A stretch of DNA of 64,000 nt from Ilex aquifolium. Taxonomy: Eukaryota > Streptophyta > Magnoliopsida > Aquifoliales > Aquifoliaceae. The DNA is taken from assembly GCA_951799425.1 (NCBI GenBank), contig OX637404.1, positions 18,934,045-18,998,044 on the forward strand, in the 5' to 3' direction. Below the pieces are notes generated by a model. That model was not told where the DNA came from, made no database searches, and saw only the letters and a program-made list of their open reading frames with translations. Position 1 is the stretch's first letter, and the number at the start of each line of letters is the position of its first letter. The translations under genes and the position numbers were made by a program. Shown here piece by piece: positions 7,145 to 44,145 of this stretch.

Positions 7145-7232
7145 GGTAGATGGAGTTTTGGAGGAGAAACCCTGTATATATCACTTTATATATATGTCAT
7201 GAGTCATGTTATGTATATAGATGAATAAATTG

Positions 7233-7260: not shown

Positions 7261-7263
<3 letters not shown>

Positions 7264-16835: not shown

Positions 16836-16915
16836 GGTAGATGGAGTTTTGGAGGAGAAAACACGTATCTAGATGAATAAATTGGAGAGAGAGAGAGAGA
16901 GAGGGGTCGAGGGAA
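16836..16915 (-). promoter_or_regulatory. UGT copy 2 upstream region, TATA-like motif lost
   Basis: The (CT)n run on the coding strand is kept (about 16886-16903). The segment holding TATATATAAAG in copy 1 is deleted, so the two copies probably differ in core promoter or transcription start. Confidence 0.4.
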
Positions 16916-19594: not shown

Positions 19595-20441
19595 CACACT
19601 TCTCCCCACACTTCTCCACTTTATTCTCGAGTTTACTCTCTTCATTTACATGAACGAGTTCTTTCCTCTGTAAATTAGAGTACATTTGCATCAACTAATT
19701 CATTCTTATGAAATTAGATTTCAAAGAGAGTAATTTTCGGCCAAATAAGTAAATCTTTATTCTATTGTTGCGATTTTGTTTTGTAGGTGTCCAATTGGTG
19801 AAAGATATACATTTAATTAGAAAATTAATTTGAATCTATATTGTACATTTAATTAGAAAATTAATTTGAATCTGCGTATATAGAGATTTGGTGAGGAGCA
19901 TGTTAAATCCTTTAGTACTATGGCTCACATATAGACTAAGACAACCATACATTTATAGATTTGGTCAAGGGCATATCATTGTATTGCAGAAATCTGAATA
20001 ATGTAGAGTGTTACTCCCATAAAGATCCAGTTGATTGGCAATGAAGTTGTGGAGATAGGGTTGCCATTAAAATAACAGAGTCTAAGAGCATCTCCAACCA
20101 TGATTCAAATTTTTACTCAAATTTAAGTTAGTATCTGAGTAAAAAACTTAATTTGATACAAAATGCTCCAATTGACAAACTCAAATTTAAAGAAGGAGAA
20201 ACTTAAATTTAAATGAGGGCAAACCCAAAATTAAATAAGAATAAAGATGACCATTGGATGTTTTCTCTCCTTGCCCATAATATAAATCCTTTGTTCCTCA
20301 TTGTAATATTGGATTATCTATTGTAAGAGCTTGCAAATCAACAAGATTATAGGTATTTTTCTCTCCCAAATAAAAAATTAATTATTGTCAAAATAATTTC
20401 TTAACTAACTACCATTGCTACATATTAACTTCTAAGAAGCA
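19595..20441. other. Intergenic DNA leading into the copia remnant
   Basis: No gene is visible. AAGAGCATCTCCAACCATG at about 20083 resembles a MITE terminus. Similarity to unit 1 resumes at about 20256 with the copia-associated sequence. Confidence 0.4.
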
Positions 20442-21770
20442 ATGCTAGTTGATCTTCCGCCTGGGCACAAAACCATTGGTAACAAATCGGACTTAAAGAA
20501 TAAACCCAAGGCAGATGGATTGATTGACAAGCATAAGGCCTGACTTGTGGCGAAAGGATATACCCAAAATAAGGGTATAGACTATGAAGAGACATTCTCC
20601 CTAGTGGTGAGGTTTGCCTCTATTCGCCTTATCCTAGCTATTGTCGCATAGACAGATTTGGAATTATTTCAGATGGATGTTAAAACAATATTCAGGAAGA
20701 CCATGTGTGTATGTTGAACGATTCAAAAAATGAATTTTAATTCTATCACTGTATGTTGATAGCATTCTTCTTACTCGGAAGAACATGTAGATGATTATCG
20801 CCTCTAAAGAGTGGCTATCCTCATACTTTTGAGATGAAGGATATGAGTTAAGCAAATTGTGTTCTGGGAGTTAAGGTTATAAAAAAATCGTGCAAAGAGA
20901 CTTCTCTGTTTGTCTCAAGAGACTTATATAAAGAAGGTCCTTGAATGATTCCACGTGAACTACTTCAAACCCATTGACACTCCAATAGAAAAGGGTCGTG
21001 AGCTTAGTATTGACCAGTGCCATAAAATGGATGAAGAAAGGAAACAGATGTTCAAAGTTCCATATGCAAGTGTAGTTGGAAGTTTGATGTACGCCATAAT
21101 GTGTACTTGCCCTAAACATATGTTATGCAGTTGGTTTGGTTAGTCGCTTTCAAAATGACTTAGGACTTGCTCAATGGCAAGTAGTTAAAAAATCCTTTGA
21201 TACCTTCGTGGTACCACTGATCTTGTACTTTGATATCACAGCGGAGACATGAGATTAAGGGGGTTTAGCGATGCAAATTGGGCTAACAATAGGGATGAGT
21301 GTAAGTCAACTTCTGGCTATGCATTTTTGCTCTGATGAGGGGTTATTTCATGGTGTAGCAAGAAACAATCATGTATTGCCCTGTTTACTATGGAGTTAGA
21401 GTATGTTGCATGTTCATTAGCAGTATAGGAGCCAGTTTTCTTGAGAAGATATTTACAACATCTAGGCATCATGCCACATTGGCATGATGTTGTGCTGATT
21501 CATTGTGATAGCATGACTGCTCTAACTTATGCAAAGGATCTCAGGTATCATAGAAGAATCAAACACATTGATATTCATTTTCACTTCATTCATGATATGA
21601 TTGAGCAAAGGGAGTTGGTCTTAAAGCACATCTTTACCGATAGGATGTTGGCTAACCCTTTCACTAAACCTATTCCTAGAGATATTTTGTTTCCCATATT
21701 AGAGATTTGGGTCTTCATAGGAATTGATGTGCTTAGACACTTGTTGACATTAATAATAATATTTCATTTC
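20442..21770 (+). pseudogene. Ty1/copia RT-RNase H remnant (unit 2)
   Basis: This is the duplicate of 11312-12596. It shows copia RT pieces ([35 protein letters not shown]), the linker region (VNYFKPIDTPIEKGRELSID, ASVVGSLMYAIMCTCP) and RNase H (FSDANWANNRDECKSTSGYA, HCDSMTALTYAKDL). The stretch at 21441-21800 is the longest uninterrupted part. Several stops and frameshifts make it non-functional. Confidence 0.85.
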
Positions 21771-22235
21771 TTTCATTTTGTGTTTCTATGGAATGATTGA
21801 TTTATGAACATACATTTTTTATTTCAAGATGTCATTAGGCTTAAGATCGTCTTACTCACACAAGCAATCACCTTGGCGCTAATCAGAGTAGTGAGCTTTG
21901 TTGTTAAAAATGTCACCTTAATGTGATTAGGCTTGGACACTTGCAAAGGTTAACATGAGGAGTTTCGATAGTTTCACGTAGCTTGAATAGAGCCGAATGT
22001 GAGACTTCAGACAAGTGCTAAGAGAATGACTAGGTTGTAGCACTCAGGTTAAGCGCATTGATAGCGACTTGTACAATATATTTTATAATATGACAAGCCC
22101 AATTGAGTGGGAGCTTTGTCGTAAGATACATGTCATATTGTATGTGCTTTGTCGCCTATTATAATAGAGTAACTTAATGGATCACTGCTTAATCACTGTT
22201 GTGAGCTCTTTGGATGATAATATTGATGATGATCC

Positions 22236-23352
22236 TGTTATGAAAAATATGTATATAATTAGATTATATTAAACTATACGAAGTCTAATTTACGCAACAA
22301 ACAGAATTCAAGTTATATCTATATACTATTATACAAAAAACAGTGCACTAACAGTGACGCAAATCTGCACAAACAATAAATAACAAAACCAGAATTTCAA
22401 TTTGAGCCTTGTGAAACACAATCTCCTTAAGACAGATTTGCTCCCTCTTGGTGCTCAAGATTGATGAGCAACTGTCTCACAAGATAGAACGGATTTTACA
22501 TTCTTGAAGAAGCAGCACTTCAATCTTCTAGACTCCAGCGAACACAACTTATGTTTATACTTGAACTGAACCAAATGAAAAATGAAGCAATATGCAGAGA
22601 GAGAGAAGAAATTCTGAAACTGGAATCCAGAATTAGGATGGATCGATTGAAATGGCAATGGGACAATCTATTTATAAACCCTTGGTGGCTGTTCAGATTG
22701 AAGAGACACATTCCTTAATCTGAACAGACAAAGGCACCTCAGGAGTGAACACAACCTTTCTGGAATGAACCAGACCCATTTGGGCGCCAAATTCAAAGTA
22801 ACGGATAGAAATTTAAAAATCCGGTTGAATTTAAATTTCGGTTGAAATTTTAATTTTGATCCGCGTTTGGATCTGATTGGTTTGACCCATGACTCGTACA
22901 GCTCCAAATAAATTTTGTTCAAAACAAATTATATCTTTTTGGCCCAAGCCCGGTCCGATTGTGGTGAGGCGGGCGACGCACACGTGTGATAAGCAAGCAA
23001 GGTAGTGTAAGCACTCACTCCGCTCACAAAAGTGTGGTGCCCCTTGGGGCCCAACCCATGAAGCTAACTAAGAGTATATTAACTCATCAAAGTGTTGGTC
23101 TTTTTTCAATGTGGGACAAGCCTTATTCCACTACACATATTTTAGTTTATTTATTCACTTCAAATGGGTCACTTTTAGACATAATTTCTCATTCAATATT
23201 TAATAGTTTTAGACAAATAAATATACGACGTTCATCTCCTAGAGGAGGAGAAAGCGTTTAAACTTGGTCCCACCAATTCGAGGTGTGAGTCCCACTTTTA
23301 TTTAAGTTTAAAGTTACTTAAATAATCTTGTTAAAAACCATTTTTTCCAACA
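22236..23352. mobile_element. Solo copia-type LTR with GATCC target duplication
   Basis: The 1117-bp sequence starts TGTTATG and ends CCAACA. The 5-bp repeat GATCC flanks it on both sides (22231-22235 and 23353-23357), so it is a solo LTR inserted in the tail of the copia remnant. Its first 180-190 bases recur truncated at 13109, and the duplication breakpoint falls inside it at 22412-22420. Confidence 0.8.
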
Positions 23353-26910: not shown

Positions 26911-27487
26911 TAGAATACAAAACATTAAGAAACAAAATGTATCACCATAAAATACTTATTCCCTTACAAAGAAAACATGAGATAAAAAGTGTTTTAAGGA
27001 ACAAGAAGTTATTAACTCAACTCCTGTCTCATCTCAAACATTTGGGAAGCTATTACGACCACCCTTTTCACGACAAACTTTTCAATGTTTACCAGACATC
27101 ACATGACACTACCATGTGGTACCCGTTAAGTACTAAGTATTATTTTTTTTTTTTGCATAACATGATTGCATCTTGCCAAATGAAAAAGTACCACTAAGAA
27201 AAAGAGCAAACATAATCAGAAGAAAGGTATGAAATCATATTATTATCAAAAAGAAAAAAGATAGATTAAGATTAAAAATGGTACTACATGGTATCTTACC
27301 ACATAAATAGAAGCACTCATAAAATAGACCAAGAACAACCACAGAGCTACATAAGCTATATTAAAAAAAATCTCACTTTAGAATGGACCCACATCCGTAT
27401 TTACAACCAAAATTTACTTCAAAATGCAATTATTTTCACAAATCAGCTTGAGAATTGATCTACATCACTAAATGCTAATACAACCCA
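26911..27487. other. Intergenic DNA, no gene seen
   Basis: AT-rich sequence lies between Helitron 1 and the truncated second gag of the Tat element. It has no coding evidence on either strand. Confidence 0.5.
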
Positions 27488-28322
27488 TGAAGTGGGACAC
27501 GAACTGTATGGATAGTTCTCTGAAGGATGAGATCGACGCTGGTCGTATCCGGTTAAACCAGGCTATGGCTGACCCTTTGAGGGTGATGGCGAATGCCCGG
27601 CAGCGGATAGGATCCGGGTATCCTTGAAGCTCCATCTGATTTTTATACAGGTTTAGATGGTCAACGGGGTCTTTGGTCCCGTCAAATGCCTCTATCGAAG
27701 GGGTCCTGAATTTTTGAGGGAGGGGGAAATGGAGGACCTCTGGGGTGAACGGTGACTCCGTCTGCTGAACCAAGGCGTCCATGGTGTCGGGGGTTCGCCC
27801 CTTAACCACTTCTTTCATATTGCCTAGCTCCCGTTGGAGTTCACGGATTTCTTGCTCCCAGGCATTGTCATTTATATTCTGGGGGTGGGGCCTATCTTCT
27901 TGGTAGGCGGCCCTAGCCCTACTGTGAGCTTCATCGTCACGTTCTTCAGGATGTCTTCTTCGGTGGTTTTCGCCAGAATGGCTGCGCTCATGGAGCTCAG
28001 TTATCCCGTTGGGTGGAGCTTGGCGTTCTTGAAGCGGAGGAGCGTCGTCGTGCTCCTCTTGGAGGGGAGGTGGCTCTTGTCGAGCCGGGGGAAATCGGGG
28101 AAGAGGGAACTGATGAGTTTGTATCCAGTCCATCAGCTCCTGGTTTTGTTTCATCAGCTGTATTGTGGTTCTATGGTAAGTTTTCAGTTCGTTGAGAGGA
28201 GGGACGTTCGCCGCTGAGGGATGACCCTCAATGTCCTCCATGTGCGCCGGAAAGTTCTCCAGCAAGTTTGGGTGGCCTTGAGGATTGGCTGGAACTTTAC
28301 TCATATTCCGAGTGGAGACCAT
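27488..28322 (-). pseudogene. Second, truncated Tat gag following the 3' LTR
   Basis: This region is nearly identical to 42551-43382, the gag start of the main element. Starting at the Met at 28322 (MVSTRNMSK), it reads openly through the retrotransposon gag domain (start of the IRCRAFAITLKGSAIAWFN region) and breaks off at about 27488 in unrelated AT-rich DNA. It has CAA where the main copy has a TAA stop, and lacks that copy's 2-base deletion. It shows that a second element, or a recombinant of two, once stood here in tandem. Confidence 0.85.
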
Positions 28323-28360
28323 CAAGTATATAAGATTCACAAGAGAACGATGAAAACCGT

Positions 28361-28379
28361 TCCCACAGACGGCGCCAAC
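28361..28379 (-). promoter_or_regulatory. Primer-binding site of the truncated second copy
   Basis: On the minus strand GTTGGCGCCGTCTGTGGG directly follows the LTR end (CATCA), identical to the site at 43421-43439. It is the tRNA-primed start of minus-strand synthesis in Ty3/gypsy elements. Confidence 0.75.
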
Positions 28380-29085
28380 TGATGGTTCCTCGGAAATCAA
28401 TCTCCCAGGCCCGAGTTGATTAGGCCCTTCTAGGATCTTATGAGATGGGTTTCAGAGAAGTTGAAATTAAGCGATGACAAACAAGCAAATGTGAGTGGTT
28501 CACCCTAGCCAAAAGACTTGGGCTACGTCCACTGTAATGGAGGCTCTTGCTCCTGGGTTGTGTATATTGATTCCAACTGATTACAAGAGGATAATTGGCT
28601 CTGGGCCAACAACGATGCTCTCTACTGAGGCTGTCCTAGGGTTCTTGACGAAAATACCAGCTAGAAGACGGGGAAGAAGACCCAGGAATTCGATCCCCTT
28701 TCCTCCTTTTACTGTTCTATTTATATGGTGTCTGCTCCTAGGGTTTTGTTGTCCCTGCTGTTCTTTCCTTGATCTTGTGGGGACCGTTCGTCCTTTCTCT
28801 GCGAGCCACTCTGACCGCCGGCGATTCTGTGCCCACGATCGCCTGGGCTCGTTCGACACTACCCCTCTGTTTCTGCAGGGAGTAACTCTGAGAAATCAGA
28901 GCCGGTTTCCTTTGTCCTTGGAGCACGTGGCGTAACAGGCTTTAACTCGGGTCATGGGCTAAGAAACAAAGGCGGGCCGGTTGGGACCACTCCTGTTTAG
29001 GCTTCGGGGCTCTCATCCAACATTTTCTGGAGGTCTTTGGGCTTGGTCCTAATGGCAGCCCAGGCCCAAAAACCTATTCTCATCA
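28380..29085 (-). mobile_element. Tat element 3' LTR (706 bp), shared with the truncated copy
   Basis: On the minus strand it begins TGATGAGAATAGG and ends GAACCATCA. Aligned by eye with 43440-44145, it differs at 5 of 706 positions (for example 28597, 28768 and three between 28920 and 29000), which suggests a recent insertion. It borders a polypurine tract on the integrase side and a primer-binding site on the other. It is therefore both the 3' LTR of the full element and the 5' LTR of the truncated one. Confidence 0.93.
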
Positions 29086-29339: not shown

Positions 29340-29347
29340 TATAAAAG
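29340..29347 (+). promoter_or_regulatory. TATA box of antisense gene 1
   Basis: TATAAAAG sits in a G/C-rich setting 432 bases upstream of the likely start codon (29772). The long gap may hide a 5' UTR intron; CTAG followed by GTACGT at about 29500 is a candidate donor. Confidence 0.5.
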
Positions 29348-29771
29348 CGGGGAAGTCCCCTCGCCTACGTCGTTCTTGCGTTTTTTGAATTTCCTTGCGT
29401 TTCTCTTTCCTTCGTTGGCTCTCGAGGTGCTTTGCTTCAGACTTTCAGGCGGCTCTTAGGGTTTCTGCGTCCTTGGTCATTTTCTGCATCTAGCACCCTA
29501 ACTAGGTACGTCTTTCCTCTTTTCTTTATTCTTGCTCGATCCGGATCCCTTTAACCCTCCTTGGTGGGGTTTTGGGTTTCGCTTCTTGATATGGAGGTTT
29601 AGTTACTTCAGAAACCACTCCGATGACCTTTCTCCCCTTACGTGTTTTGTGGACCATCCTACTTCGCTTTGGATATCCTTCCTTCGAAGTTGGTGTCTGA
29701 GACCTGCATTTTTGACGGACTGTGCTTTACACTTTCCTTCCCTTCACTCCGGCTTACGGCCTGGATCTTTG

Positions 29772-31951
29772 ATGGGGAAGTGGGTCGTTTCCTCCTCAGA
29801 ATCGGATTCCGAGGATCTAGTAGACGAGGAGGTCGAGATAAGTTCTCAGAGCGGTAGTTCTGTTGATAGGGCCGCTTCCGGGTCCGCTCACGGAGTTTCT
29901 GCCTCTGGGTCCGCCCTTGTAGAAGAAGCTCGTCCTCTTTCCTCCCTTCCTCCTGATTCTTTTGTTGCGTCGAAGACTAAGAAGTCCAAACCGGCTCTTC
30001 CCCCAATTCCTAGGAAAAGAGCTCGTCGGGACCAGGCCGACCTGGCCTGTTGCGCAGCATCGACTCCCAGTTGTCTCAGCGACGAGGACTTAGGCGAACT
30101 GAGGCGGGAGTATTGCTTTCCCGACTCCGTCCTCTTACACTCTCCTGAAGAACACGAGAGGTGCAATTCTTCTGTTCCCGGATTGGTCTGTTTTTACGAA
30201 TCCGCCTTCCGAGCTGGTTTTGCGGTTCCCTGTTCATCCTTTTATCCGGATAGTTCTTTCTTTTTATAACATATATCCTGCCCGGCTTTCTCCAAACGGA
30301 TGGGGTCTCCTGATCGGATTTCTTGTCCATTGGTTGAAGAGTGGGAACGACTCTCAGCCCTCCATTAATGAATTTGCCTCCCTTTTTCAACTTAAGTCCT
30401 CCCCTTCTGCTGGTTTCCTTTATTTTTCGAAAAGGGTCAGGGCGAGGAATCTGATCACCGGGCTTCCTTCTTCCAACAAAGGGTGGAAACCCAAGTTCTT
30501 CTTTGTTAGAGGTGATTCCTGGGAGCTTTCCGGGAAACCAGGGGACGTCCCTCTCATTCCCCGGTCTTGGGGGCCCCAAGGAATATAGGTAAGGCCCTTC
30601 AGTTTAGCTGCATCTTTTTCCTTCCCTATTCTTCTTTTTCTGACTTAACTTCTGATGTGCAGATTACCGTCCTGTCCTTGGGGTCGAGGAAGCGGCAAGG
30701 GTTGCTAGAGCCGAGGATTTGGGGTCGCAGTCCTTCTTCGATTTGGTGACGGATGAGAATTTAGCCCTCTACGAACTCGGGCCTCCAGTTGAGCAACCCT
30801 CAGTGCCTTCATCACCCCCTGCTGCCCCAACTGCCCCCATGAAGAAAGATTTGATAATGGCGGTATTCTCAGATGCCGAGAAGTCGAGGAAGAAAAGGAA
30901 GGTGGTGAAGGATTCCCAGCTGTTATCTACTGGTGCGTCGGTATCCGACCCCCCACCTGCTATTTCTGAGCAGAAGGAAGAGACCCTCCTTCCCCGCGAG
31001 GATGCGCCTCCCCCCCTGCTCCCTGTTGAGGCTTCTAGGGGCAAATCATCGACCGAGGGAGGTTCAGAAAAAGGACGCGAGGTTCCAGCAGTTCTTCCTC
31101 ACTCTACACCTCAGGAAGGTGGGAAGGTGGGCCTCGCTCGATCTGCGTCTAAGGATCAAGGGGATGGTTTCCTGCGTGACCCTGAGGTCGCAGTTGCTGC
31201 CTTGTCCGACCTCGTCTCAACTTTAGATCTCAGGGCATCCATGCGGGTTCCTTTCGACAAGAAGGTCGATCGCGCTATCCGGGGCATGGCAGAGGTACTT
31301 TTTATCCTTGTCTTTCCTCTTCTCCTGTATTTCTTTATGCCAAGGTCTCCAGGGATTTTTTGTTTGACCCTTTTTTCTTCTCAGACGCTCGCCTGCGTAA
31401 AGATGCTAGGATTCCACTACAACGAGGAGCTTTAGAAGGCAAAGGAGTCCAGGGCCGCCCTGTTAGTGAGCAAGGAGGCTGCCGAGGAGAAGGTGAAGAT
31501 TTTGGCCTCAGAGGCCGCTGAATTGAAGAGGATTAACGACGAGATGGATGCTCGCCTTCAGGATTTTGTCAAGGTCATGAACTCCAAGGAGAACAAACTC
31601 AAGGCCGCCGAGGCTGACCTGGTTGCCAAGGATTCCGAGCTGTTGTCTTTGCGGTCTCGTGTTTCGCAGCTCGAGAAAGACTGCGCCTCCGGCTTTGTGA
31701 AGGGTTTTCTAAACCTTAAGGATCAACTTGAGGAGGCTCATCCTGACCTGGACTTGGATCCTTTTGTACCAGTGTTGGACTCCGAGGAGGCCGCCGTGAT
31801 GGCTGAGGAGGCCGGGACCTCTGATCTCCCTGAGGGTGTGGCTCCTGATGCGGAGAAGGTGTCTGGACTTGTGGTGGCAGCGGCGGAGGGACCATGCATG
31901 CCAGCAGGGGCATCTGATGAGGGGGCAGGTGATGAAGAGATTGCTTCTTGA
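29772..31951 (+). pseudogene. Antisense gene 1 of the Tat element (broken)
   Basis: My exon model is 29772-30588, 30663-31294 and 31385-31951 (2016 nt, a multiple of three). Exon 1 has a Ser/acid-rich start (MGKWVVSSSESDSED), a basic nuclear-type signal (PRKRARRD) and the domain shared by all three antisense genes. That domain contains LSPNGWGLLIGF, NKGWKPKFFFVRGDSWE and a Pro-Arg-Ser-Trp block, and resembles the 'putative gypsy type transposon' domain of plant elements. Exon 3 is a coiled coil ending near FVKGFLNLKDQ and DLDLDPF. It is disrupted by one extra T at 30216-30219, a compensating one-base loss near 30573, and an in-frame TAG at 31433-31435. Function is unknown. Confidence 0.75.
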
Positions 31952-32441
31952 GGTTGATTTGAGGCCTTCCTGCAGTTTCCAACTTCCTTGTGACTCTTCA
32001 AGTAGTTTCTTTGTGGAATGCTTGATTGTAACTTCTTTAAGTGCTGAAATGAGAACTCTTGTGGTTTTTCCTTTTTTATGATTGTTGTGTGATGCTTTGC
32101 TACAAACTTCTTTGACTTGTGGTTGCGTTGTATTTTCCTTAGGCGCTGACTTCTGCTTTTTCACTTATGGCTGAGCTTCTTTGAACCGATCTGACCTTCA
32201 CGCTTTCCCCTTGGGTCTCTTGAACTTCTTTAGGGCTATTTTGGTCTTTTCCCGCTGTTTTACTTGTAGTGGAGACCCGACGGTTTTGTTCGTTTGAGAA
32301 CGTGCGCCGTCAGAGGGTTTAGTGGTCCCTCGATCGTGGCGCCTGAAAAGCCCCCATGACGCCATGTGTCCACTTCATTAATGGCGAGAGACGTGCATTA
32401 ACTTCCTTCGGCGTCAGTGACAAGGCTTGTCCTGCAGTGCC
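31952..32441. other. Spacer between antisense genes 1 and 2
   Basis: Presumably the 3' UTR of gene 1 and the promoter region of gene 2. No reading frame of note. Confidence 0.5.
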
Positions 32442-32450
32442 TATAAATAG
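32442..32450 (+). promoter_or_regulatory. TATA box of antisense gene 2
   Basis: TATAAATAG lies 86 bases before the start codon at 32528, a normal plant core-promoter spacing. Confidence 0.65.
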
Positions 32451-32527
32451 GCCTCCGGGGAATGATTGTTCTTCACGAATTGTGTAAAGTCCTAGCTTCT
32501 GAAAAAACCTCTCTGATTCCTACATTC

Positions 32528-34491
32528 ATGGCTTCTCCTCCCTCTTCATACGAAATCATGGAGCGAGTTTTTGGCCATGTTGAAGCAACCGAGATCGATG
32601 GGGACGAGGCTCAGCTCCTTGCTAGGCGCTTCGATTTTCCCCCCGGTGTTATCGTGCGTTCTGCGGATTTGCGTAGGTTTCACAGCTCGGTGGTTGGTGA
32701 AGCTTGTTTTTTCGAGGCCCCCTTCTTGTTGGGGCTTCGATTTCCCCTTCCTGGCCTGATACGAGACGTTCTTCACTTTTTCAGCTTCTGTCCTGCCATG
32801 CTCCTCCCATCTGGCTGGGCGATGTTAATGACCTTTACTGCGGCGTAGGAAAGGATGTTTCCTCAGGCTAGGGCTAACTTGAAAGAGTTTCTTCACTTTT
32901 TCCGCCCCGAGGAGGTATCCAAATTCTACCACTTTGTCCCTAGGCGAGGGGGTGAAATTCCCATCCGGGATCTCCCGTCGAGCCCTGAGGGGTGGATAAG
33001 GAGATATTTCTTCATCTCTGGAGACGGCTGGGAGTTTGGTTCCCAATTCCCGGGTTCTGTCAGAGTTCCTAACGCCTGGGGGAGCCGTAGAAACTTAAGT
33101 AAGCTATTTACCTTAATTTCTGTTGACGCTCGTGCTTGTGTACTAACAGTGTCACCGGTTCCTAATGCAGGAGAGCTCCCGCCCCTTGACTCTTCCGAGC
33201 AAGCCCGAGTCGACCAAGCCCGCGCTCGTCTGCCCTTTTCTTATGTTGAGCTGATGCACCCCGGGGTCCCCTTGGCGTCAGGTGATTGCATATAGACAAT
33301 GTCTTTTATCTCTCTGCTCCTTAGTTCGGAACCTTGCTAAGTTTTTGATCTTGTCTGCGTAGTTCCTTCCTACTTGGTGACTCAGCGCCACATGATCATG
33401 GAGCGCGTAGATGAAAGAAGGCGGGGTAGGGCCGTAGGACCTCCGGCGAAGAGGACGAGGTTGGAAGTGGGTACCACTTCTGGCGAGGTCCCCGTTCCGG
33501 CCGCCGAGGCTCCTGTTCCTGAATCTAGTGTTCCTGTTCCTTCACCCGAGGCCCCGAGGTTGACATCTGAGCCAGTCGTCAGTGAAGTCACTGCGGGTAC
33601 CGTGGCGATTGATCCCGTTGGAGGGCCTGTTCGGCGAGGCACTGCTTTATTTACTGCAGCTGGTTCCAGCTCGGCCCGTGCCCCCCAGGCCTCCATTACT
33701 GACCCAGAGGTCGGCCTACTTCGGGACGTGAGTTTGAGCAGTCGGGCTCTGATGGAGTTGATTCCCCGAGCCGACCTGCGTCGCTCTGTAGACCTTCCAT
33801 TTCAAGTTCGAAGCCGTGATGCTCTTCACGCCTTGCTCGAGGTATGCCTTGGTGCTTTTATCTCTATTTCGAACTCCTCGGTTTCTTACATTGTCCCTTA
33901 TGTTTCCAGTCGGCAACGCATGTTTGTGCTCTTGGGAGGGAAATCTTTATGCTGAGGAGCGACGTTCAGAGGAGAAATGCCGAGGTTCTTGACTCCCGTC
34001 GGCAAGGCACCGAGCTGCTGGACTGGGACTTGGCCACTGAGAGGGAATTGGAGCAGGTCCTTGAACAGCGGGCCCATACTTACAGACAGCTGATTGCCAG
34101 CACTTCTGCTGAGGTGTCTCTAAGGGAGGAGCTGGCTCGTTTAAAGGAGGAGCGGGAGGCTGAGGAGGAGAGACTGCTAAACGCGGCCGTCGCCCGCACT
34201 CTTTTGGAAGATGAGCTGAAGGAGTCCCGGGCTGAGGTATCTGAGCTGACCAGGTCTTTAGCTGCTGAACGTCGGCTCGTAGAAGATCAACGGAAAGAGC
34301 TTGAGAAAGCGAGATTGGAGGCGGCTAGGGCTTTTGTTGACGGGTTCTTCAATTTCGCTGACCAGGCGATGGAGAGATTCCCCGACCTAGACCTTGAGCA
34401 ATTTCAGCCAAGGTTTGATGCTTCTTCAAGTGGCTGTGCTCCTGATGTTACTCTTGCTCCCGACGCCACTCCTCCTGCAGATTGGTCTTGA
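32528..34491 (+). pseudogene. Antisense gene 2 of the Tat element (one nonsense codon)
   Basis: Four exons fit: 32528-33098, 33171-33281, 33363-33841 and 33910-34491. They sum to 1743 nt (581 codons) with consistent phases and GT/AG borders. The only break is TAG at 32846-32848. Exon 1 encodes the shared domain (LLPSGWAM, SPEGWIRRYFFISGDGWEF, VPNAWG). Exon 3 has a basic patch (RRRGRAVGPPAKRTR) and a Pro/Val-rich low-complexity stretch. Exon 4 is a long coiled coil (LREELARLKEEREAEEERLL and onward) ending FVDGFFNFADQAMERFPDLD, clearly homologous to the tail of gene 1. Likely nuclear; function unknown. Confidence 0.78.
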
Positions 34492-34911
34492 GTACCGGGA
34501 TTTTCATAGCTGATTTCTTTTGTAGATCTCTCTTTTTTTTTTTTTTTTTTTGACGCAATTTTGTAGTGGAACTTCCCCTTTGGAATGCAAAAATTTTTGT
34601 GGTGTTGTACTTGTGTTGTGCTGTACTGGGTGCTGTACTCGTTGCTGCACTCCCCTGCCCCCTCTACTCCGAAGAGGCCTTGGCCTGTTGGGAGTAGCGT
34701 CACCGCTCGGAATCTGGGCTTCCTTACATTGGATCTGCTGCGTGTATCATCCATACATATATATGTATATATATATATATATATATATACTTCTTGCAAT
34801 ATACGATGTAGATTTAAGGAACTTTCTGGGTGGTTTACCAACCTCGTCGTAAGTTGAGCTAGCATTCAATGCTATCTTGATTGCGAGATTCCAACAGTCA
34901 CCCTTGGATAC
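34492..34911. other. Spacer between antisense genes 2 and 3
   Basis: It holds a T-run (about 34530-34550) and a (TA)n microsatellite (about 34752-34790). The overlapping short frames are not genes. Confidence 0.6.
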
Positions 34912-34919
34912 TATTTATA
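34912..34919 (+). promoter_or_regulatory. TATA-like box of antisense gene 3
   Basis: TATTTATA lies 65 bases before the start codon at 34977, matching the layout of gene 2. Confidence 0.55.
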
Positions 34920-34976
34920 CCCATTTCTCTCATCGCTTTTCAGAAGAGTCTCTTTGTGTACTTGAACTTTGCAGTG

Positions 34977-36017
34977 ATGGATTCTTCTCCACTTTTCAAG
35001 CAACGAGCCCGTGAGTCGCTCAAGGGCGATTGGTGCTCTATCTTTCTTCTTCCCTCCCGGCTTACGGCCGCGGAAGCTGCTGATATGAAGGGTCGATATG
35101 ACCTTCCGGCGGATCTGGGAGTTAGGGCTCCCACTCCTGATGAACCTTGCAGTATGCCTATTTCGGGCGAGGTCTCTTTTTTTGTGGACGCATTTGAGTG
35201 TGGTCTTCGACTCCCTCTTCATCCGGATTTCGCCCGGATATTGTCTCACCATGGCTTGTGTCCCTCTCGTCTTTCCCCCCAGGGGTGGGCTGCCATGGTT
35301 GGCTTCTTCATTTTCTGGCGCATGCAAGGCTTTGAGACCTTTCCTACAGTTTCCGAGTTCTTCTACTTCCTTGATCTCTCTTTCGACTTTCCACCTTTCT
35401 TTAGCTCTCTCTCTTTTAAGTGGTATTTTCATCCACCATTGATTGCTGATATCCCCACTTCCCCTGAGGGGTGGTCCCAACGCTTCTTTTTCGTCTCTGG
35501 GGACTCCTGGGAATCTGCTGTTGGGGATGATGGGCATGTTTGGGTTCCTCGTTCTTGGACAAGCTTCCGGGAGAGAGGTAGCCATTTTTCCTCAAGGTTA
35601 TTCGTGTTTGAACGGCAACAACCTTGCTGATCTTGTTTGTGCTGTGCAGGTATTCCAGCTCTTACTCCATTGGAGGCGTTCCATGTCGGAATGGTGGAGA
35701 AAGCTTCTCCCCGTCCTTACTCTGCTCTGGTTACCCCTCAGAACCTAGTCCGTTATGGGATCGGGGGAAGTTCCACCAGAATCCAGCGTCCGCCCTCCCT
35801 TGTAGAAGAGCAGGAAGAAGCCGACTTGGCAGGTTCTGAGGTGGAGGTCCTGAAGAGGAAATTGGCAGAGGTGGAGAGAGAGAGAGATGTTCTGAAAGAG
35901 GAGAATGCCAGGCTTAGGGTGGCGGCTGTTCATCTTCAGAAGGTGGAGGAGGGAGATACCCCGATGGAGGGGGAGGTTGCGGAAGTTTTGGGTGGGGTAG
36001 GAGGCCAGGGGGCCTGA
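34977..36017 (+). CDS. Antisense gene 3 of the Tat element (intact, 322 aa)
   Basis: Two exons, 34977-35577 and 35650-36017, join with GT/AG borders into 969 nt without a stop, giving 322 residues. Exon 1 begins MDSSPLFKQRARESL and carries the shared domain: LSPQGWAAMVGFFIFW, TSPEGWSQRFFFVSGDSWES and VPRSW. Exon 2 opens IPALTPLEAF, aligning with the spliced start of exon 2 in gene 2 (phase-1 introns in both), and ends in a short coiled coil (EVEVLKRKLAEVERERDVLK). It lacks the long middle and tail of genes 1 and 2. It lies convergent to gag-pol, its 3' end facing the hairpin array. Such antisense ORFs are known in Tat elements without a settled role. Confidence 0.75.
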
Positions 36018-36170
36018 TCTTTGTATAACTTCTATGTACTTGTTCGTTGTTGTTTCTTTTGAACTGTTGACTTTCTACTCATGGTGCAATGAAATTCCGG
36101 GCTTTTGTCTTCCAGTTTTTTTTTTGCTAAGAATGTGGTTATCTGTTGAACAAGGAAACCTGCCTGTCTT
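36018..36170. other. Likely 3' UTR of antisense gene 3
   Basis: T-rich non-coding sequence runs from the gene 3 stop to the hairpin array. CAATGAAAT at about 36087 could serve in polyadenylation; this is inferred. Confidence 0.35.
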
Positions 36171-36670
36171 AGACTGAAGAGTCTGTAGTTCTTGAGCTTA
36201 CGAGCTCTTAGACTGAAGAGTCTGTAGTTAATGAGCTTACGAGCTCTTAGACTGAAAAGTCTGTAGTTCCCGAGCTTACGAGCTCTTGAGCTTACGAGCT
36301 CTTAGACTGAAAAGTCTGTTGATCCTGAGCTTACGAGCTCTTAGACTGAAAAGTCTGTAGTTCCTGAGCTTACGAGCTCTTGAGCTTACGAGCTCTTAGA
36401 CTGAAAAGTCTGTTGATCCTGAGCTTACGAGCTCTTAGACTGAAAAGTCTGTAGTTCCTTAGCTTACGAGCTCTTGAGCTTACGAGCTCTTGAGCTTACG
36501 AGCTCTTAGACTGAAAAGTCTGTAGTTCTTGAGCTTACGAGCTCTTGAGCTTACGAGCTCTTAGACTGAAGAGTCTGTTGATCCTGAGCTTACGAGCTCT
36601 TAGACTGAAGAGTCTGTTGATCCTGAGCTTACGAGCTCTTGAGCTTACGAGCTCTTAGACTGAAGAGTCT
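36171..36670 (+). repeat. Array of 27 tetraloop-type hairpins (11 type A, 16 type B)
   Basis: Type A is AGACT-GAAR-AGTCT and type B is GAGCT-TACG-AGCTC; each has a perfect 5-bp stem and a 4-nt loop. Type A starts at 36171, 36210, 36249, 36304, 36343, 36398, 36437, 36508, 36563, 36602 and 36657. One, two or three B units (16-bp period) follow each A, giving A-to-A steps of 39, 55 or 71 bp in the order AB, AB, ABB, AB, ABB, AB, ABBB, ABB, AB, ABB, A. One B (36460) has a mismatch at its first base. It lies between antisense gene 3 and the integrase end. On the plus strand the loops are GAAA/GAAG and UACG, resembling GNRA and UNCG tetraloops. Confidence 0.9.
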
Positions 36671-36769
36671 GTTGATCCTGAGCAGGGCGAACTTTTGGGA
36701 AACTTTTGTATCTCTTCGTTGATAAAATCGGATCTTTTTACAATAATCTTCCATTCCTTGCTACAGACT

Positions 36770-39508
36770 CTACTGGTAATATTGCTTCAAGTGGTCCGCA
36801 TTCCATGAGTGCTGTAGGTCCCTGCCCTCCTCAGTTTGCAACTGGTAGTTTCCAGGTCGGATAATCCTTTTCACTACGTACGGTCCTTCCCAGTTTGGTC
36901 CCAACTTGCCATGGGCCGGGTCTTTCCTGGCTGGAAGCAATTTCTTCAACACTAGATCTCCTGGTTTAAAGCCTCTCCTTCTTACTCGTTTGTTATAGTA
37001 TTTTGCTGTGCTCCTTTAATAGGAGGAGATTCGCTGCAGGGCCTCGTCTCTCTTCTCGTCTAGGAGGTCGAGGTTGACAAGCAGGGACCTTTCGTTCTGC
37101 GTAGGATTGAACAGCTCGGTCCTCGCGGTGGACACTCCTACCTCGACGGGAGCCATGGCCTCCGTCCCGAACGCCAGGCTAAAAGGGGTTTCTCCAGTCG
37201 CAGTCCGAGTGGTCGTTCGGTATGCCCATAACACTGCGGGGAGGTGGTCTACCCATTGGGACTTAGACGCCTCCATCCTGGTCTTGAGTGCCAGTTTGAT
37301 AGTTCTGATGGTAACCTCGGCCTGCCCATTAGACTGCGGGTGGGCTGGTGCCGAGAAGAAATTTTTGATTCCCAGTCCGCTACAGAAATTCGTGAACATC
37401 GGATTATCGAATTGCTTTCCGTTGTCAGAAACCAACGCTCTGGGGACTCCGAAGCGGCAAATTATAGACTTCCAAACGAAACTCTTGACCTTCTGAGCTG
37501 TGATCCTCGCCAGAGGTTCGGCTTCAGCCCACTTGGTGAAGTAGTCTACCGCGACCACGACGAATTTGCACTGGTCTACTCCTATTGGTAGGGGTCCTAG
37601 GATGTCCAAACCCCACTGTTGAAAGGGCCAAGGGCTGACCACCGGGGTGAGGAGTTCTGGTGGGCAGTGTGGCAAGTTCCCGTGAACCTGACAAGCTTGG
37701 CATTTCTTCACTATCTCTTTGGCGTCTTTGGACATGGTTGGCCAGAAGTAACCTTGCCGTAGGGCTTTGCTAGCTAATGTCTTTGCACCGATGTGATTGC
37801 CGCACATGCCTTCGTGGATTTCTCTTAGGATGTAGTTCGCTTCCGTTCCTGTCACACATTTCATTAAGGGAAAAGAAAAGCCTCTTTTGTATAGGTTACC
37901 TTGGATCAGTGTGAACCTTGCCGCCCTGGCCCTTAGTTTAGAGGCGCCCTTCGGGTCCTCTGGCAGTACTCCGTCCTGTAAGAAGGATATGATGGGGTCC
38001 ATCCATGAAGCCTCTTCTTCAACTGGCATAGCCTGGGTTTCTGTGGCTGCTTCGTCGTCAGGCTGAATGCTGGGCCGTGCTAGGACTTCGATGGGCATCC
38101 ACCCTGGTAAGTCTTTACTGCCGACAGTGGCCAGCTTGGCAAGGGCGTCTGCCCGCTGATTGGCTTCTCTGGGGATTTGGATGAGCTCGGCTGAGACGAA
38201 TTTCCTCAGTAGTCTTTGCACATCTGTTAGGTATAGCGCCATCTTCTCGTCCCGGGCGGCATATTCTTCTTCGACTTGCCTGACTACCAGTTGCGAGTCA
38301 CTATACACCACGATCTGTTGAGCTTCCATTGAAAGGGTCAGGTTCAGCCCGGCTATGAGGGCTTCGTACTCTGCTTCGTTGTTAGACGCCTGAAAGTCAA
38401 ACCTCAAGGCATACTCTAGGTCATACCCCTCCGGTGATGTTAGGATGAGCCCGGCTCCACTTCCCTGCACATTTGAAGCCCCATCTACGCTTAATTTCCA
38501 GGTGGGAACGTCGGGAACATGGTCTTGGCTTTCTTCGTTTTCCTCGGGTGGGGAGGTAAACTCAGCGAGAAAGTCTGCCAGGACTTGTCCCTTGATGGCG
38601 GTCCTAGGCTTGAACTTGATATCAAATTCGCTAAGCTCCATCGCCCACTTCATCAACCGTCCCGAGGCTTCAGGTTTGTGCAGGACCTGCCTCATTGGTT
38701 GGTCCGTTAGGACTTCGATGGTGTGCGCCTGAAAATATGGTCTTAACCTCCGTGCGGCGACTAGCAGGGCCAGCACGAGCTTTTCCATCTTCGGGTATCT
38801 TTCTTCGGCGCCTAGGAGGGCTTTGCTGCAGAAGTAGACAGGCAGCTGGATCCGATCTTTGTCTCTAACCAGTGCGGCGCTGACCGAGAAGTCTGAGACT
38901 GCGAGGTAGAGTGTCAGAACTTCTCCCTCTTGAGGGCTTACCAGCACGGGTGTGGACGCCAGGTACACCTTTAGGGCTGGGAAAGCCTCTTCGCATTTCT
39001 CATCCCACTGAAAGGCTGCCTTAAGAACCTTGAAGAACGGCTGGCATTTATCGCTGGAGCGTGATACAAAGCTGTTGAGCGCAGCTACTCTCCCGGTTAG
39101 GCACTGGATTTCTCTGGTGGTAATGGGGGGCTTCATTTCGAGGACTGCTCTGACCTTTTCCGGGTTCGCCTCAATGCCTCGGCTGTTGACGATGAAGCCC
39201 AAAAACTTTCCAGCTGACACCCCGAAGGTGCATTTTGCGGGGTTCAGCTTCATTCGATACCTCCTCATGATCTCGAACGACTCCCTGAGGTGCTGAATGT
39301 GGGCCTCGGCTTTAAGCGATTTCACCAGCATATCATCTATATATACTTCCATGGTTGAGCCTAGTTTCTCTCTGAACATTCGATTAACCAACCTTTGGTA
39401 GGTGGCCCCCGCGTTCTTTAGTCCGAACGGCATCACTTGGTAGCAAAAGGTTCCCTGTTCTGTGACGAATGAGGTCTTCTCTTGGTCATTAGAGTTCATC
39501 CGGATTTG
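36770..39508 (-). pseudogene. Tat polyprotein, C-terminal part: RT (second half), RNase H, second RNase H, integrase
   Basis: From the insertion point the frame resumes at QIRMNSNDQEKTSF and runs through RT (FGLKNAGATYQR, catalytic VYIDDMLVK). A classical RNase H follows (YFCSKALLGAEERYPKMEKL, EVLTDQPMRQVL), then a second archaeal-type RNase H (LSVDGASNVQGSGAG, NNEAEYEALIAGL, SDSQLVVRQV, ANQRADALAKLA). Integrase has an HHCC zinc finger (HEGMCGNHIGAKT, CQACQVH) and the DDE core (GLDILGP, VSDNGKQFDN, NGQAEVTIRT). A TAA at 37016-37018 interrupts the integrase tail, which continues in frame to a final stop at 36770 (tail WEGPYVVKRIIRPGNYQL). The two RNase H domains place it in the Tat lineage. 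Confidence 0.92.
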
Positions 39509-39512
39509 GTTG

Positions 39513-40588
39513 TTGCTTCAACTTTAAAAGTGTAAACCCAAGCGCAGGTTGAGCAGAGTAATATAATCTCGGAAGTCCGAGGTCGATCCCACGAGGAATT
39601 GTAACAAGGAACAATCACACAAACAACAAAAGTAATTTGAACGGAAAAGGATTTGTTTAGAAAGTTGTTGATTGGAGAAAAGTGATTTTTGGTAATTAAA
39701 ACAGTAATAAATAAAATACTAGAGCATCAGGTACTCCCTCTCAACTTCATACAATAATAGTTAAAGACTCAAAGCTTGACTTGAAAGAGGAATTAAATGT
39801 CAGTTAACCCAATTAACAACTCAAGTGATAAATCCAATGGTTATAATCAAAAGACTACCAGGAACCTGAATAATCATTCAATCATATTATTTTATGAAAT
39901 AATGTTAATCCTTCCAGCGTGGAATAACTAGTGATTTACACGCAGGGAAACTCAAGCAATTGATGTACGTGGCACAACAACTCAAGAATTTATACAGCAT
40001 AAACACTTTGCTAAAATATTAGGAATTAAATTAACACAGTTCCATAAATCCTTAAGTACAAGAGTCAATAAAAATACCGTACTCCGTCGAGAGATTTTCT
40101 CCTAGCCCTAGCTTAGCCTTCTAGCCAGACATGGTAACGGATGCAGAAAATAGACTAAAAACAAAAAGAGAAGACCCTTTACAAGATTCTAGGTTCGTAT
40201 TTATACAGTACAGTTGAAAGAAATTGCATCCCATTAGAACTCTAAATTCGGCAGCAGAGGTTTGACACGCGTCCGGACGCACCTCTCTCATCCGTCCGGA
40301 CGCGTTCTCCAGAATGATCTTTGCTTCGTTTGTCAACTTTCTGCCAATCGCGTCCGGACGCGTATATTTACTCCGTCCAGACGCGTGTTCCAGTGTGATC
40401 CGTCCTGAGCTATGCTTCCTTTCTTCTCATAGTTTCACTCCAATTGTGCACTATTAACCTGCAAAACAACACAACTCATCTTTTATTCTCATAGCCTTAA
40501 TCTTCAATTAAATCATCATAAATATCACACTTTCACAATAAAATGATCAATATTACCTCTGACAAATGTAATTATTAGACCTGAATCA
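39513..40588. mobile_element. 1.08-kb unclassified insertion splitting the RT
   Basis: It interrupts the RT between DAFSGYN and QIRM. GTTG occurs at both borders (39509-39512 and 40589-40592) as a short target duplication. The ends (TTGCTTCAAC and, in reverse, TGATTCAGGT) are only weakly alike. It has no coding region. It contains CGTCCGGACG palindromes at about 40268, 40293 and 40351, plus a one-base variant near 40375. Its class is not clear to me. Confidence 0.7.
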
Positions 40589-43382
40589 GTTGTATCCTGA
40601 GAAGGCATCCATGAAGCTCAGGAGCTCGTGACTGGCTGTCGCGTCGACTATGAGGTCGATCCGAGGCAGTGGGAAACTGTCCTTTGGGCATGCTCGATTG
40701 AGGTCGGTAAAATCGATGCAGAGTCGCCACTTGCCGTTTACTTTCTTCACCAGAACGACGTTAGCTAGCCAGGTCGGGTAGTCGACTTCTCTGATGGCTT
40801 TGGCGCGCGATAGCTTGGCTACCTCTTCGTTGATCGCCTTTTGCCTGTCCGGCGCGAAACTTCTCCTCTTCTGCCTTACCGGCTTGCAGTTAGGATCTAC
40901 GCTGAGATGGTGCACGATCACGGCGGGGTCTATCCCTTCCATGTCTTCTTGTTTCCAAGCGAAGGCGTCAGCATTTTCTTTTAGGAAGGAGATGAGTTTC
41001 TCCTTGATGACTGGTAACAGTGTGGAGCCTACGAAGACTACGTGCTCCGGGTCCTCACCCAGCTGCACTGGCTCCAACTGCTCCGAAGGGGAAGGTTGGG
41101 CTTCCACCTCATCCCTCATGTCCAAGTCCTCCAGCTGTACTGACTCCACCTCTTTTTGCCGCATGGAGGCTACGTAGCATTCCCTGGCGAGGCGTTGGTC
41201 TCCTTTCACCACCCCTACTCCACTTTCGGTTGGGAATTTCATCACCAAATGATACGCAGAGGGCACCACCTTAATGGAGTTGAGGGACGGCCTCCCCAAC
41301 AGGACGTTGTAGGCAGACGGGGCGTCCACCACTAGGAAACGGGTGGTGGTGGTGACTTGGCAGGGCGGATCTCCTATGGTGAGGACCAGCGGTAGTGATC
41401 CGACTGGCAAAACTCTTTCTCCCGAGAACCCCAAGAGGTGGGTTTTCACGGGTTTCAGTCTCGACTTCTCTATTCCAAGCTTCTCGAAGGCCGCTAAGAA
41501 GATGATATCTGCCGAGCTGCCGTTATCGACTAGTACCCGATGTATGGTCTTGTTTGCTATGATTGCTTTTATGACCAAAGGGTCATCATGAGGGTGCTGG
41601 CACCCTTCTAGGTCCGCGTCCGAGAAGGTGATTTCTGCATCTCGACGGGGCACCTTGTTGACAGCATAAACCGTGAGGAAGTCTTCCGAGCGGGCCCTTC
41701 TGGCGTGGGCTCTCCGGGCCGAACTCAATTCACCACCGCCAGCGAAGCCCCCCGAGATGACTCGGATCTCTCCGATGGCTTGTTGATGTTGTGGTGGCTC
41801 GGCAGCAGCTTGGGCTTCTCGCCCTTGATTGTTCTGTGCTCTCTGCTCTCCTGCTATGTATTGGCGCAGATGGCCTCTCTGAATTAAGTATTCGATCTCC
41901 TTCTTCAACTGAATGCAATCGTTCGTCTCGTGGCCTGTGTCTTTATGGTAAGCGCAGTATTTGGTGGCGTCCCTCCTGTTGGGATCTGACTTCATCCGGG
42001 GTGGCCACCTTACGAACCTCTCGTTCTGCACCTCGTGAAGGACCTGGGCTATCGAGGTGACGAGGGGCGGGAGCCGTGCTGGCATATACCGCTGTTGTAG
42101 TTCTTGGAGAGGAGGTCCCAGACGGTCTCGAACGTTCCCTCTCCTTTTAGGAGAAGGCTCTCTTCCTCTTCTCGAGGAGCGATCCCTCCTCGGAGATCGG
42201 TCGCGTCTCTTCTCCTTCTTGGGGCTGTGATCCCTCCGTTTCTTCTCTCCGTCCGTCGTCACCATACTCCCCTTCAGGCGGAGGGCCTCTTCGCCGTTTA
42301 TGTACTTCTCGGCTTTCGTCAATACCTCGGCCATAGTGGCTTGAGGATTCTTCGCAATCGAGAAGAGAAGGTCCTTGGACTGAACTCCGAGTCCTGACAT
42401 GAAGGTAGTCAAGGCGAACTTGTCGTCCACGCTTTCTACTTTCAGGCACTCCTGGTTGAAGCTCTGCACGTAGCCTCGGAGGGATTCGTTGGGTCCCTGT
42501 TTGACGCTTAGTAGGTGGTAGGACGGCTTCCTATAAGTCCTTGCCCCAATGAAGTGGGACACGAACTGTATGGATAGTTCTCTGAAGGATGAGATCGACG
42601 CTGGTTGTATCCGGTTAAACCAGGCTATGGCTGACCCTTTGAGGGTGATGGCGAATGCCCGGCAGCGGATAGGATCCGGGTATCCTTGAAGCTCCATTTG
42701 ATTTTTATACAGGTTTAGATGGTCAACGGGGTCTTTGGTCCCGTCAAATGCCTCTATCGAAGGGGTCCTGAATTTTTGAGGGAGGGGGAAATGGAGGACC
42801 TCTGGGGTGAACGGTGACTCCGTCTGCTGAACCAAGGCGTCCATGGTGTCGGGGGTTCGCCCCTTAACCACTTCTTTCATATTGCCTAGCTCCCGTTGGA
42901 GTTCACGGATTTCTTGCTCCCAGGCATTGTCATTTATATTCTGGGGGTGGGGCCTATCTTCTTGGTAGGCGGCCCTAGCCCTACTGTAAGCTTCATTGTC
43001 ACGTTCTTCAGGATGTCTTCTTCGGTGGTTTTCGCCAGAATGGCTCCTCATGGAGCTCAGTTATCCCGTTGGGTGGAGCTTAGCGTTCTTGAAGCGGAGG
43101 AGCGTCGTCGTGCTCCTCTTGGAGGGGAGGTGGCTCTTGTCGAGCCGGGGGAAATCGGGGAAGAGGGAACTGATGAGTTTGTATCCAGTCCATCAGCTCC
43201 TGGTTTTGTTTCATCAGCTGTATTGTGGTTCTATGGTAAGTTTCTAGTTCGTTGAGAGGAGGGACGTTCGCCGCTGGGGGATGACCCTCAATGTCCTCCA
43301 TGTGCGCCGGAAAGTTCTCCGGCAAGTTTGGGTGGCCTTGAGGATTGGCTGGAGCTTTACTCATATTCCGAGTGGAGACCAT
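40589..43382 (-). pseudogene. Tat polyprotein, N-terminal part: gag, protease, RT (first half)
   Basis: Gag probably begins at the Met at 43382 (MVSTRNMSK), just after the LTR and primer-binding site. It includes the retrotransposon gag domain (RCRAFAITLKGSAIAWFNRI, FMSGLGVQSKDLLFSIA), a basic stretch and a zinc knuckle variant (CAYHKDTGHETNDC). The protease active site reads LVDNGSSADIIFL. RT starts with KVNGKWRLCIDFTDLNRACP and stops at FMDAFSGYN, where the insertion lies. It is broken by TAA at 43080-43082 (CAA in the copy at 27488-28322) and by a nearby 2-base deletion (about 43045) that shifts frame. Confidence 0.92.
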
Positions 43383-43420
43383 CAAGTATATAAGATTCAC
43401 AAGAGAACGATGAAAACCGT

Positions 43421-43439
43421 TCCCACAGACGGCGCCAAC
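43421..43439 (-). promoter_or_regulatory. Primer-binding site of the Tat element
   Basis: On the minus strand GTTGGCGCCGTCTGTGGG immediately follows the 5' LTR end. The same TTGGCGCC core occurs in the older fragment at 13879. Confidence 0.8.
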
Positions 43440-44145
43440 TGATGGTTCCTCGGAAATCAATCTCCCAGGCCCGAGTTGATTAGGCCCTTCTAGGATCTTA
43501 TGAGATGGGTTTCAGAGAAGTTGAAATTAAGCGATGACAAACAAGCAAATGTGAGTGGTTCACCCTAGCCAAAAGACTTGGGCTACGTCCACTGTAATGG
43601 AGGCTCTTGCTCCTGGGTTGTGTATATTGATTCCAACTGATTACAAAAGGATAATTGGCTCTGGGCCAACAACGATGCTCTCTACTGAGGCTGTCCTAGG
43701 GTTCTTGACGAAAATACCAGCTAGAAGACGGGGAAGAAGACCCAGGAATTCGATCCCCTTTCCTCCTTTTACTGTTCTATTTATATGGTGTCTGCTCCTA
43801 GGGTTTTGTTGTCCCTGCTGTTCTTTCATTGATCTTGTGGGGACCGTTCGTCCTTTCTCTGCGAGCCACTCTGACCGCCGGCGATTCTGTGCCCACGATC
43901 GCCTGGGCTCGTTCGACACTACCCCTCTGTTTCTGCAGGGAGTAACTCTGAGAAATCAGAGCCGGTTTCCTTTGTCCTTGGAGCACGTGGCGTAACAGGC
44001 TTTAACTCGGGTCATGGGCTAAGAAACATAGGCGGGCCGGTTGGGATCACTCCTGTTTGGGCTTCGGGGCTCTCATCCAACATTTTCTGGAGGTCTTTGG
44101 GCTTGGTCCTAATGGCAGCCCAGGCCCAAAAACCTATTCTCATCA
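43440..44145 (-). mobile_element. Tat element 5' LTR (706 bp)
   Basis: This is the intact partner of 28380-29085 (5 differences by eye). It ends at 44145, after which unrelated AT-rich DNA begins. Confidence 0.93.

Follow-up and report, generated by a model that had tools for sequence, protein, structure and literature searches.

Why should a retrotransposon carry three intron-containing genes on the strand opposite to its own gag and pol? This question is raised by a Ty3/gypsy element of the Retand type in Ilex aquifolium, located in the stretch of 64,000 nucleotides that we analyzed (contig OX637404.1, positions 18,934,045 to 18,998,044; hereafter the window). Three gene models lie on its plus strand between the integrase domain and the 3' long terminal repeat (LTR), antisense and convergent to gag-pol, which is on the minus strand. 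An earlier note on this DNA had described them as tandem and homologous, each with a separate TATA box, and recomputation gave identical coordinates and spliced lengths (2016 nt for gene 1, 1743 nt for gene 2, and 969 nt for gene 3). It also described GT/AG introns in matching phase. The GT/AG borders hold, the first introns all being phase 1 and the final introns of genes 1 and 2 phase 0. The genes, however, have three, four, and two exons, respectively (six predicted introns altogether), with an additional intron in gene 2. The spliced totals are multiples of three as claimed, although for gene 1 this figure is a net one, since the exons joined as they stand do not form one frame and contain seven in-frame stops, compared to one in gene 2 and none in gene 3. 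Gene 3 is the only one intact in the window, as had been noted, and is short, without the PDLDL motif found in the tails of the others. We find that this three-gene feature is real and family-wide within this genome, and we consider it likely to be an antisense accessory cassette conserved in a family of Retand type and made up of three old, diverged paralogs, whose role is probably one of nuclear regulation.

The note had proposed a domain common to the three genes and a search against the Pfam family of gypsy-type transposons (PF04195, Transposase_28, or TRP28). In this search, gene 1 (32.2 bits, E 1.3e-7) and gene 3 (39.2 bits, E 8.5e-10) scored above the 26.2-bit gathering cut-off, and gene 2 fell below it, with 16.4 bits (E 0.011) in the window. 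Two copies in which exon 1 of gene 2 is open reached 20.3 and 23.9 bits (E 6.4e-4 and 5.1e-5), still under the cut-off. Alignment and profile comparison support the common domain in all three. Using profiles built from copies, where those of genes 1 and 3 also took in members of other families, gene 2 matched gene 3 with an E of 1.8e-19 and gene 1 with an E of 1.8e-18, and hhalign probabilities among the three were 99.1-99.8. The homology spans approximately 170 residues, well past the 69-position Pfam model, and the modules of the paralogs are about 30-31% identical among themselves. Basic runs resembling nuclear localization signals (NLS) occur in genes 1 and 2 with hardly any in gene 3, and the tails of the genes give weak Pfam matches of the coiled-coil type. 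Sequence searches yielded no relatives in the PDB at E <= 1, and none were confirmed in one scan of IMG/VR.

The earlier note regarded the set as an expansion inside one element, a reading that would fail if relatives had a single antisense gene and the other two aligned to unrelated elements. In the near relatives sampled, all three genes are present instead. We fetched 20 copies from the best 32 of 150 scored gene-3 matches, all at least 92% identical in gene 3, and every one has genes 1 to 3 arranged as in the window, on one strand. The match lists hold, for each gene, the best 150 scored of about 5,800-8,000 candidates, and a partner missing from them may be unscored. Both partners were upstream of 100 of these 150 gene-3 matches, gene 2 only was found for 9, and gene 1 only for 10; at least 99 loci have all three genes. 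The median spacing among the matches listed was 2356 bp from gene 1 to gene 2 and 2430 bp from gene 2 to gene 3. Chance placement would give about 0.09 gene-2/gene-3 pairs, compared to at least 109 gene-3 matches with a gene-2 partner. Each paralog formed one group across copies in a tree for which 87 reads were reduced to 74 by length and occupancy filters and to 59 by removal of near-copies, and in which the bootstrap had not settled; two reads from a distant copy (L029) were excluded by name. A recent triplication private to one decaying element and without function would agree with the broken state of two of the three genes in the window. However, the low identity between modules, the grouping of each paralog across copies, and the cassette order in all 20 copies led us to reject a one-off triplication, and we consider such an event most improbable. 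The arrangement is instead family-wide and partly older, as gene 3 groups with genes of other families (see below).

When the exon boundaries of the window were transferred to the copies by alignment, gene 1 had an uninterrupted frame between its ATG and its stop codon in 10 of the 20 copies, gene 2 in 9, and gene 3 in 10, with all three genes open in three copies and none in another three. The distant copy L029 (C1:872241-880040) retains gene 3 along with the final exons of gene 2, and gene 1 was not found in the 7.8 kb fetched. Its gene 3 is just 60% identical to that of the window and the last exon of its gene 2 is 84% identical. Judging from this copy, individual genes of the cassette may behave as modules in evolution or recombination.

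Sequences for transcription and splicing are conserved among the copies. Intron donors were GT in 119 of 119 instances and acceptors AG in 117 of 119, and all six introns were more diverged than their own exon flanks. The TATA boxes are conserved to the extent given in Table 1, and the start codon was ATG in 18 of 20 aligned rows for gene 1 and in 21 of 21 for both gene 2 and gene 3. Between genes 2 and 3, a T run (window 34533-34551) and a TA microsatellite (34756-34789) occupy the stretch expected to hold the end of gene 2 and the promoter of gene 3. A motif search located 24 modules, and in 23 of them a phase-1 GT donor follows a conserved Trp at a distance of exactly 19 nt. This count includes one gene twice (L046 lies within L053) and becomes 22 of 23 genes once corrected. 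Only gene 1 of the window, with its broken frame, departs from this spacing; three of the 20 short pieces L031-L050 yielded no motif. Since nearly all paralogs and families examined have this intron in one place, descent of the genes from a single spliced ancestor is very probable. Independent acquisition from multiple sources has been argued for the extra open reading frames (ORFs) of plant LTR retrotransposons (PMC6317226), and the three genes could likewise be host genes captured independently. We think this very unlikely given that one module and one intron position recur in nearly all paralogs and families examined and that, according to the text of Vicient 2025 (PMC11963269), TRP28 has no similarity outside transposable elements.

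We then asked how these reading frames have changed among copies. The ratio of nonsynonymous to synonymous substitution rates (dN/dS) was calculated pairwise from 19 copies and the window, and medians are given for pairs with dS > 0.1, which are not independent. One copy with genes that look mosaic (L009) was excluded from these ratios and from stop counts, and was kept in the counts of gene order, splice sites, and open genes. The module exon of gene 1, taken as two overlapping pieces, had medians of 0.21 and 0.10, the module of gene 2 had 0.14 and 0.08 in two pieces, and the module of gene 3 had 0.11. Values for the later exons were 0.45 and 0.25 in gene 1 and 0.28 and 0.16 in gene 2, and the other exon of gene 3 had 0.25. 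The integrase end had a median of 0.06, based on 66 instead of 190 pairs. Shifted forward frames in the ten antisense pieces had ratios of 0.73-3.27. The opposite-strand frame that shares wobble positions with the genes also had low ratios (0.15-0.55; 0.10 for integrase), and it contained stops in 19 of 19 copies for all ten pieces; the gene frames had few stops apart from the terminal ones. From these comparisons of sequence, we are highly confident that all three genes are protein-coding and under purifying selection.

It could be that the antisense RNA rather than protein is what matters, with convergent double-stranded RNA feeding or tuning silencing and the frames being incidental. The genes and gag-pol are convergent with an array of hairpin units between them, and double-stranded RNA from antisense transcripts has been proposed as a possible role in a review (PMC7264820). 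However, a role of RNA alone would not predict protein-level selection, open frames, or precise conservation of splice sites, and we regard it as improbable. RNA may play a role in addition to the proteins. The array is composed of units that alternate between 16 and 39 bp, and on the plus strand these units would fold into hairpins with UACG and GAAA loops, which we take to be of the UNCG and GNRA types. In the 20 copies and the window, all five arm pairs were intact in 341 of 475 TACG units and 204 of 240 GAAA units. Variants altering both arms were AGGCT/AGCCC (60) and GGGCT/AGCCC (9), and a variant altering one arm was GAGCT/AGCCC (26). The predicted energy of the array was -233.5 on the plus strand versus a mean of -146.4 (sd 4.9) for 30 mononucleotide shuffles, and -162.6 on the minus strand versus a shuffle mean of -123.8 (sd 6.5). 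The array may serve the antisense genes as a 3' RNA element.

The age of the gene set was examined in other families of the same genome. The best 150 PF04195 matches scored 46-53 bits, more than the three genes of the window with their 16-39 bits. By eye, none of them falls on the places of genes 1-3, and all 20 that were sampled (L031-L050) belong to other families. One element each of three families was fetched in longer stretches. Two of these families, represented by L030 with L051 and by L053, have two TRP28 genes, one long and one short, and the third (L052) has a single long gene in the stretch fetched. In the L030/L051 family, pairing used 61 of the 150 rows for the short gene. Of 32 near-identical long genes, at least 19 are followed by a short gene 3.4-3.6 kb downstream, and for two others the short gene lies at 9.3 and 17.4 kb. 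In the tree, gene 3 clusters with the short genes of two other families (support 100/99), to which it is 44-46% identical. Because of this grouping, it seems that at least one duplication preceded these families and that the split of gene 3 from the long genes is older than they are. Gene 1 was joined with the long genes of other families at weak support (83/81) and we do not claim this grouping. These results could also mean that the long and short genes form a general and ancient Retand pair, with the middle gene being a lineage-specific addition on its way out. The two families with long and short genes alone in the stretches fetched (one element each), the pairing in the L030/L051 family, and the position of gene 2 under the Pfam cut-off are all in keeping with this. 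We nonetheless think it unlikely, since the module of gene 2 has dN/dS ratios of 0.08 and 0.14 and the gene is open in 9 of 20 copies.

We return to the conserved accessory cassette as the reading that we favor. Under this model, each of the three genes (long, long, and short) would have its own TATA box and introns, and each product would consist of a TRP28 module followed by a coiled-coil-like tail. The host would transcribe each gene from its own promoter and then splice the transcript. The introns would outlast retrotransposition because they lie opposite to the strand of the genomic gag-pol RNA, in which they are not introns. The long proteins, with their NLS-like stretches and common C-terminal motif, would act in the nucleus, and the paralogs would associate via coiled coils to control the transcription or silencing of the element itself, like retroviral antisense regulators. 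A regulatory complex of long and short paralogs mediated by coiled coils is the mechanism that we prefer, by analogy and tentatively, and we consider it less likely than not to be correct in this form.

Several observations weigh against this model. Neither partner was among the matches listed for 31 of the 150 gene-3 matches, and 17 of the 20 copies have at least one gene that is not open. Between close pairs (dS <= 0.1), pooled dN/dS was 0.26-0.95 in nine of the ten pieces and 1.55 in one (0.19 for integrase); higher ratios between recent copies are as expected for decaying insertions. A second opposite-strand frame is open throughout an 82-codon piece of gene 2 in all 19 copies, and it is open in many copies in one piece of gene 1 and one of gene 3. 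Where open, this frame had dN/dS ratios of 1.17-2.68 and is for this reason taken to be without constraint. Coding on the gag-pol strand over the same exons was rejected, as the wobble-sharing frame is closed and the second frame is unconstrained. Gene 2 is on a long branch and stands alone beside other long branches in the tree. For the regulatory mechanism, the evidence consists of the basic stretches, the weak Pfam matches of coiled-coil type, and analogy with published systems.

Going beyond this family, the gene sets suggest that two or three spliced antisense proteins, old and diverged from one another, can be encoded by a Retand-type element. A wider proposal is that Retand elements generally have an antisense locus of two to three ancient, functionally diverged spliced paralogs (an LTR-proximal long gene, an integrase-proximal short gene, and sometimes a middle gene) encoding a hetero-oligomeric nuclear regulator, with the extra genes missed because of the Pfam cut-off and the introns. 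We consider this a genuine possibility that falls somewhat short of even.

The order of the pol domains of the element in a Pfam search is RT (reverse transcriptase), RT_RNaseH, RVT_3, Integrase_H2C2, and rve. A second RNase H between RNase H and integrase is a trait common to Ogre and Retand (PMC6317226) and is present here. Antisense TRP28 genes between pol and the 3' LTR, as in Retand, are also present, in the form of three genes with two above the Pfam cut-off, and the tandem array associated with Retand occurs in the window and in 20 of 20 fetched copies. The label of Tat used in the earlier note is incomplete; the sequence supports a narrower assignment, to the Ogre/Retand domain order combined with a TRP28 gene of Retand type. 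The two LTRs have mismatches at 5 of 706 positions. The left LTR is joined to a further, truncated copy; 27484-29085 repeats 42545-44145 with 98.9% identity. This further copy has the same orientation as the element and is cut at 27484, and an ORF within it (27468-28451) had no Pfam match of its own. Together, the element and this copy make up a tandem or recombined pair. Elsewhere in the window, there are two UDP-glycosyltransferase genes (PF00201) at 5699-7180 and 15390-16868. The regions 5464-7169 and 15153-16860 are 96% identical, and repeats near these genes (11126-13293 and 20255-22420) have 95% identity. This gene pair and the neighboring repeats are probably a recent segmental duplication.

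Table 1. Positions in the window of the element, its antisense genes, and associated features.
Feature	Position	Strand	Details
Host element, Ty3/gypsy Tat (Retand type)	28380..29085 and 43440..44145 (bounding LTRs)	-	706-bp LTRs
Truncated further copy, primer binding site and 5' gag-side part	27484..28379	-	Shares 3' LTR, tandem junction
3' LTR	28380..29085	-	706 bp, TG...CA ends
Gene 1 TATA box	29340..29346	+	TATAAAA in 20/20 aligned rows (19 copies and window)
Gene 1 (long) exon 1, TRP28 module	29772..30588	+	PF04195 E 1.3e-7 on 30103-30585; frame broken in window
Gene 1 exon 2, basic NLS-like stretch	30663..31294	+	
Gene 1 exon 3, coiled-coil-like, PDLDLD tail	31385..31951	+	One in-frame stop in window
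Gene 2 TATA box	32442..32448	+	TATAAAT in 17/21 aligned rows
Gene 2 (middle, long) exon 1, divergent TRP28 module	32528..33098	+	One in-frame stop in window
Gene 2 exon 2	33171..33281	+	AG acceptor before and GT donor after in 20/20 copies
Gene 2 exon 3, basic NLS-like stretches	33363..33841	+	
Gene 2 exon 4, coiled-coil-like, PDLDLE tail	33910..34491	+	
Gene 3 TATA-like box	34912..34919	+	TATTTATA in 18/21 aligned rows, TATTAATA in remaining 3
Gene 3 (short) exon 1, TRP28 module	34977..35577	+	PF04195 E 8.5e-10; open
Gene 3 exon 2, short coiled-coil-like end	35650..36017	+	Without PDLDL tail
Tandem array of hairpin-forming 16/39-bp units	36167..36683	+	Between gene 3 and integrase
pol part (RT partial, RNase H, second RNase H, integrase)	37016..39517	-	PF00078, PF17919/PF17917, PF13456, PF17921, PF00665, in this order
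gag and next part of polyprotein	40586..43060	-	PF03732 E 1.9e-13
5' LTR	43440..44145	-	706 bp

In the literature cited here, the role of the antisense TRP28 genes of this abundant lineage of plant retrotransposons is an open question. TRP28 is predicted to have DNA-binding capacity (PMC11963269, PMC7264820). The spliced, diverged, and constrained sets described here, with constraint on the module not far from that on integrase, provide concrete gene models for this question. The introns explain how annotation based on ORFs alone can under-report TRP28 genes, and they indicate that a retrotransposon can retain introns when these lie opposite to the strand of its genomic RNA. The presence of a paralog set suggests a multi-subunit rather than a single-protein activity.

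An antisense TRP28 gene in Retand is already known, and what is added here is the set of two to three spliced, constrained, old paralogs. The survey of Vicient 2025 (PMC11963269) reports 104 antisense ORFs in 63 clusters, 57 with TRP28 (at least 600 bp), and TRP28 in all clusters but two once shorter ORFs are counted. By our own count, Table 1 of that survey contains 56 clusters with a TRP28 ORF of at least 600 bp, or about one per element. The Retand ORFs in the survey are like the genes here in being antisense, located between pol and the 3' LTR, and matched by PF04195, and about half of the Retand elements have tandem arrays in the same region, as does this element. By contrast, the survey describes about one TRP28 ORF per element and we find two to three paralogs with introns and separate TATA boxes. 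Neither "intron" nor "paralog" occurs in the main text of the survey. From titles and abstracts we recognized no earlier report of several TRP28 genes or of introns, and we do not claim that these are absent from print.

Other elements offer partial parallels. In Silene Retand-2, there is also more than one extra ORF (ORF3 and ORF4), and ORF4 is antisense with Transposase_28 (PMC3290532, PMC7264820); unlike for the genes here, we found no statement in the relevant parts of these papers that ORF3 and ORF4 are paralogs or have introns. The gene23 of maize Grande is likewise antisense between pol and the 3' LTR, and it is transcribed from its own upstream promoter and encodes a nuclear protein (PMC7264820). 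It is likened to the genes here by description only, and one gene is described in Grande compared to three in this element. The role that we propose resembles that of HTLV-1 HBZ, a nuclear regulator encoded on the antisense strand of an LTR element, an analogy with no claim of homology. HBZ is a single gene with its antisense promoter in the 3' LTR (PMC7264820), unlike the three genes of this element.

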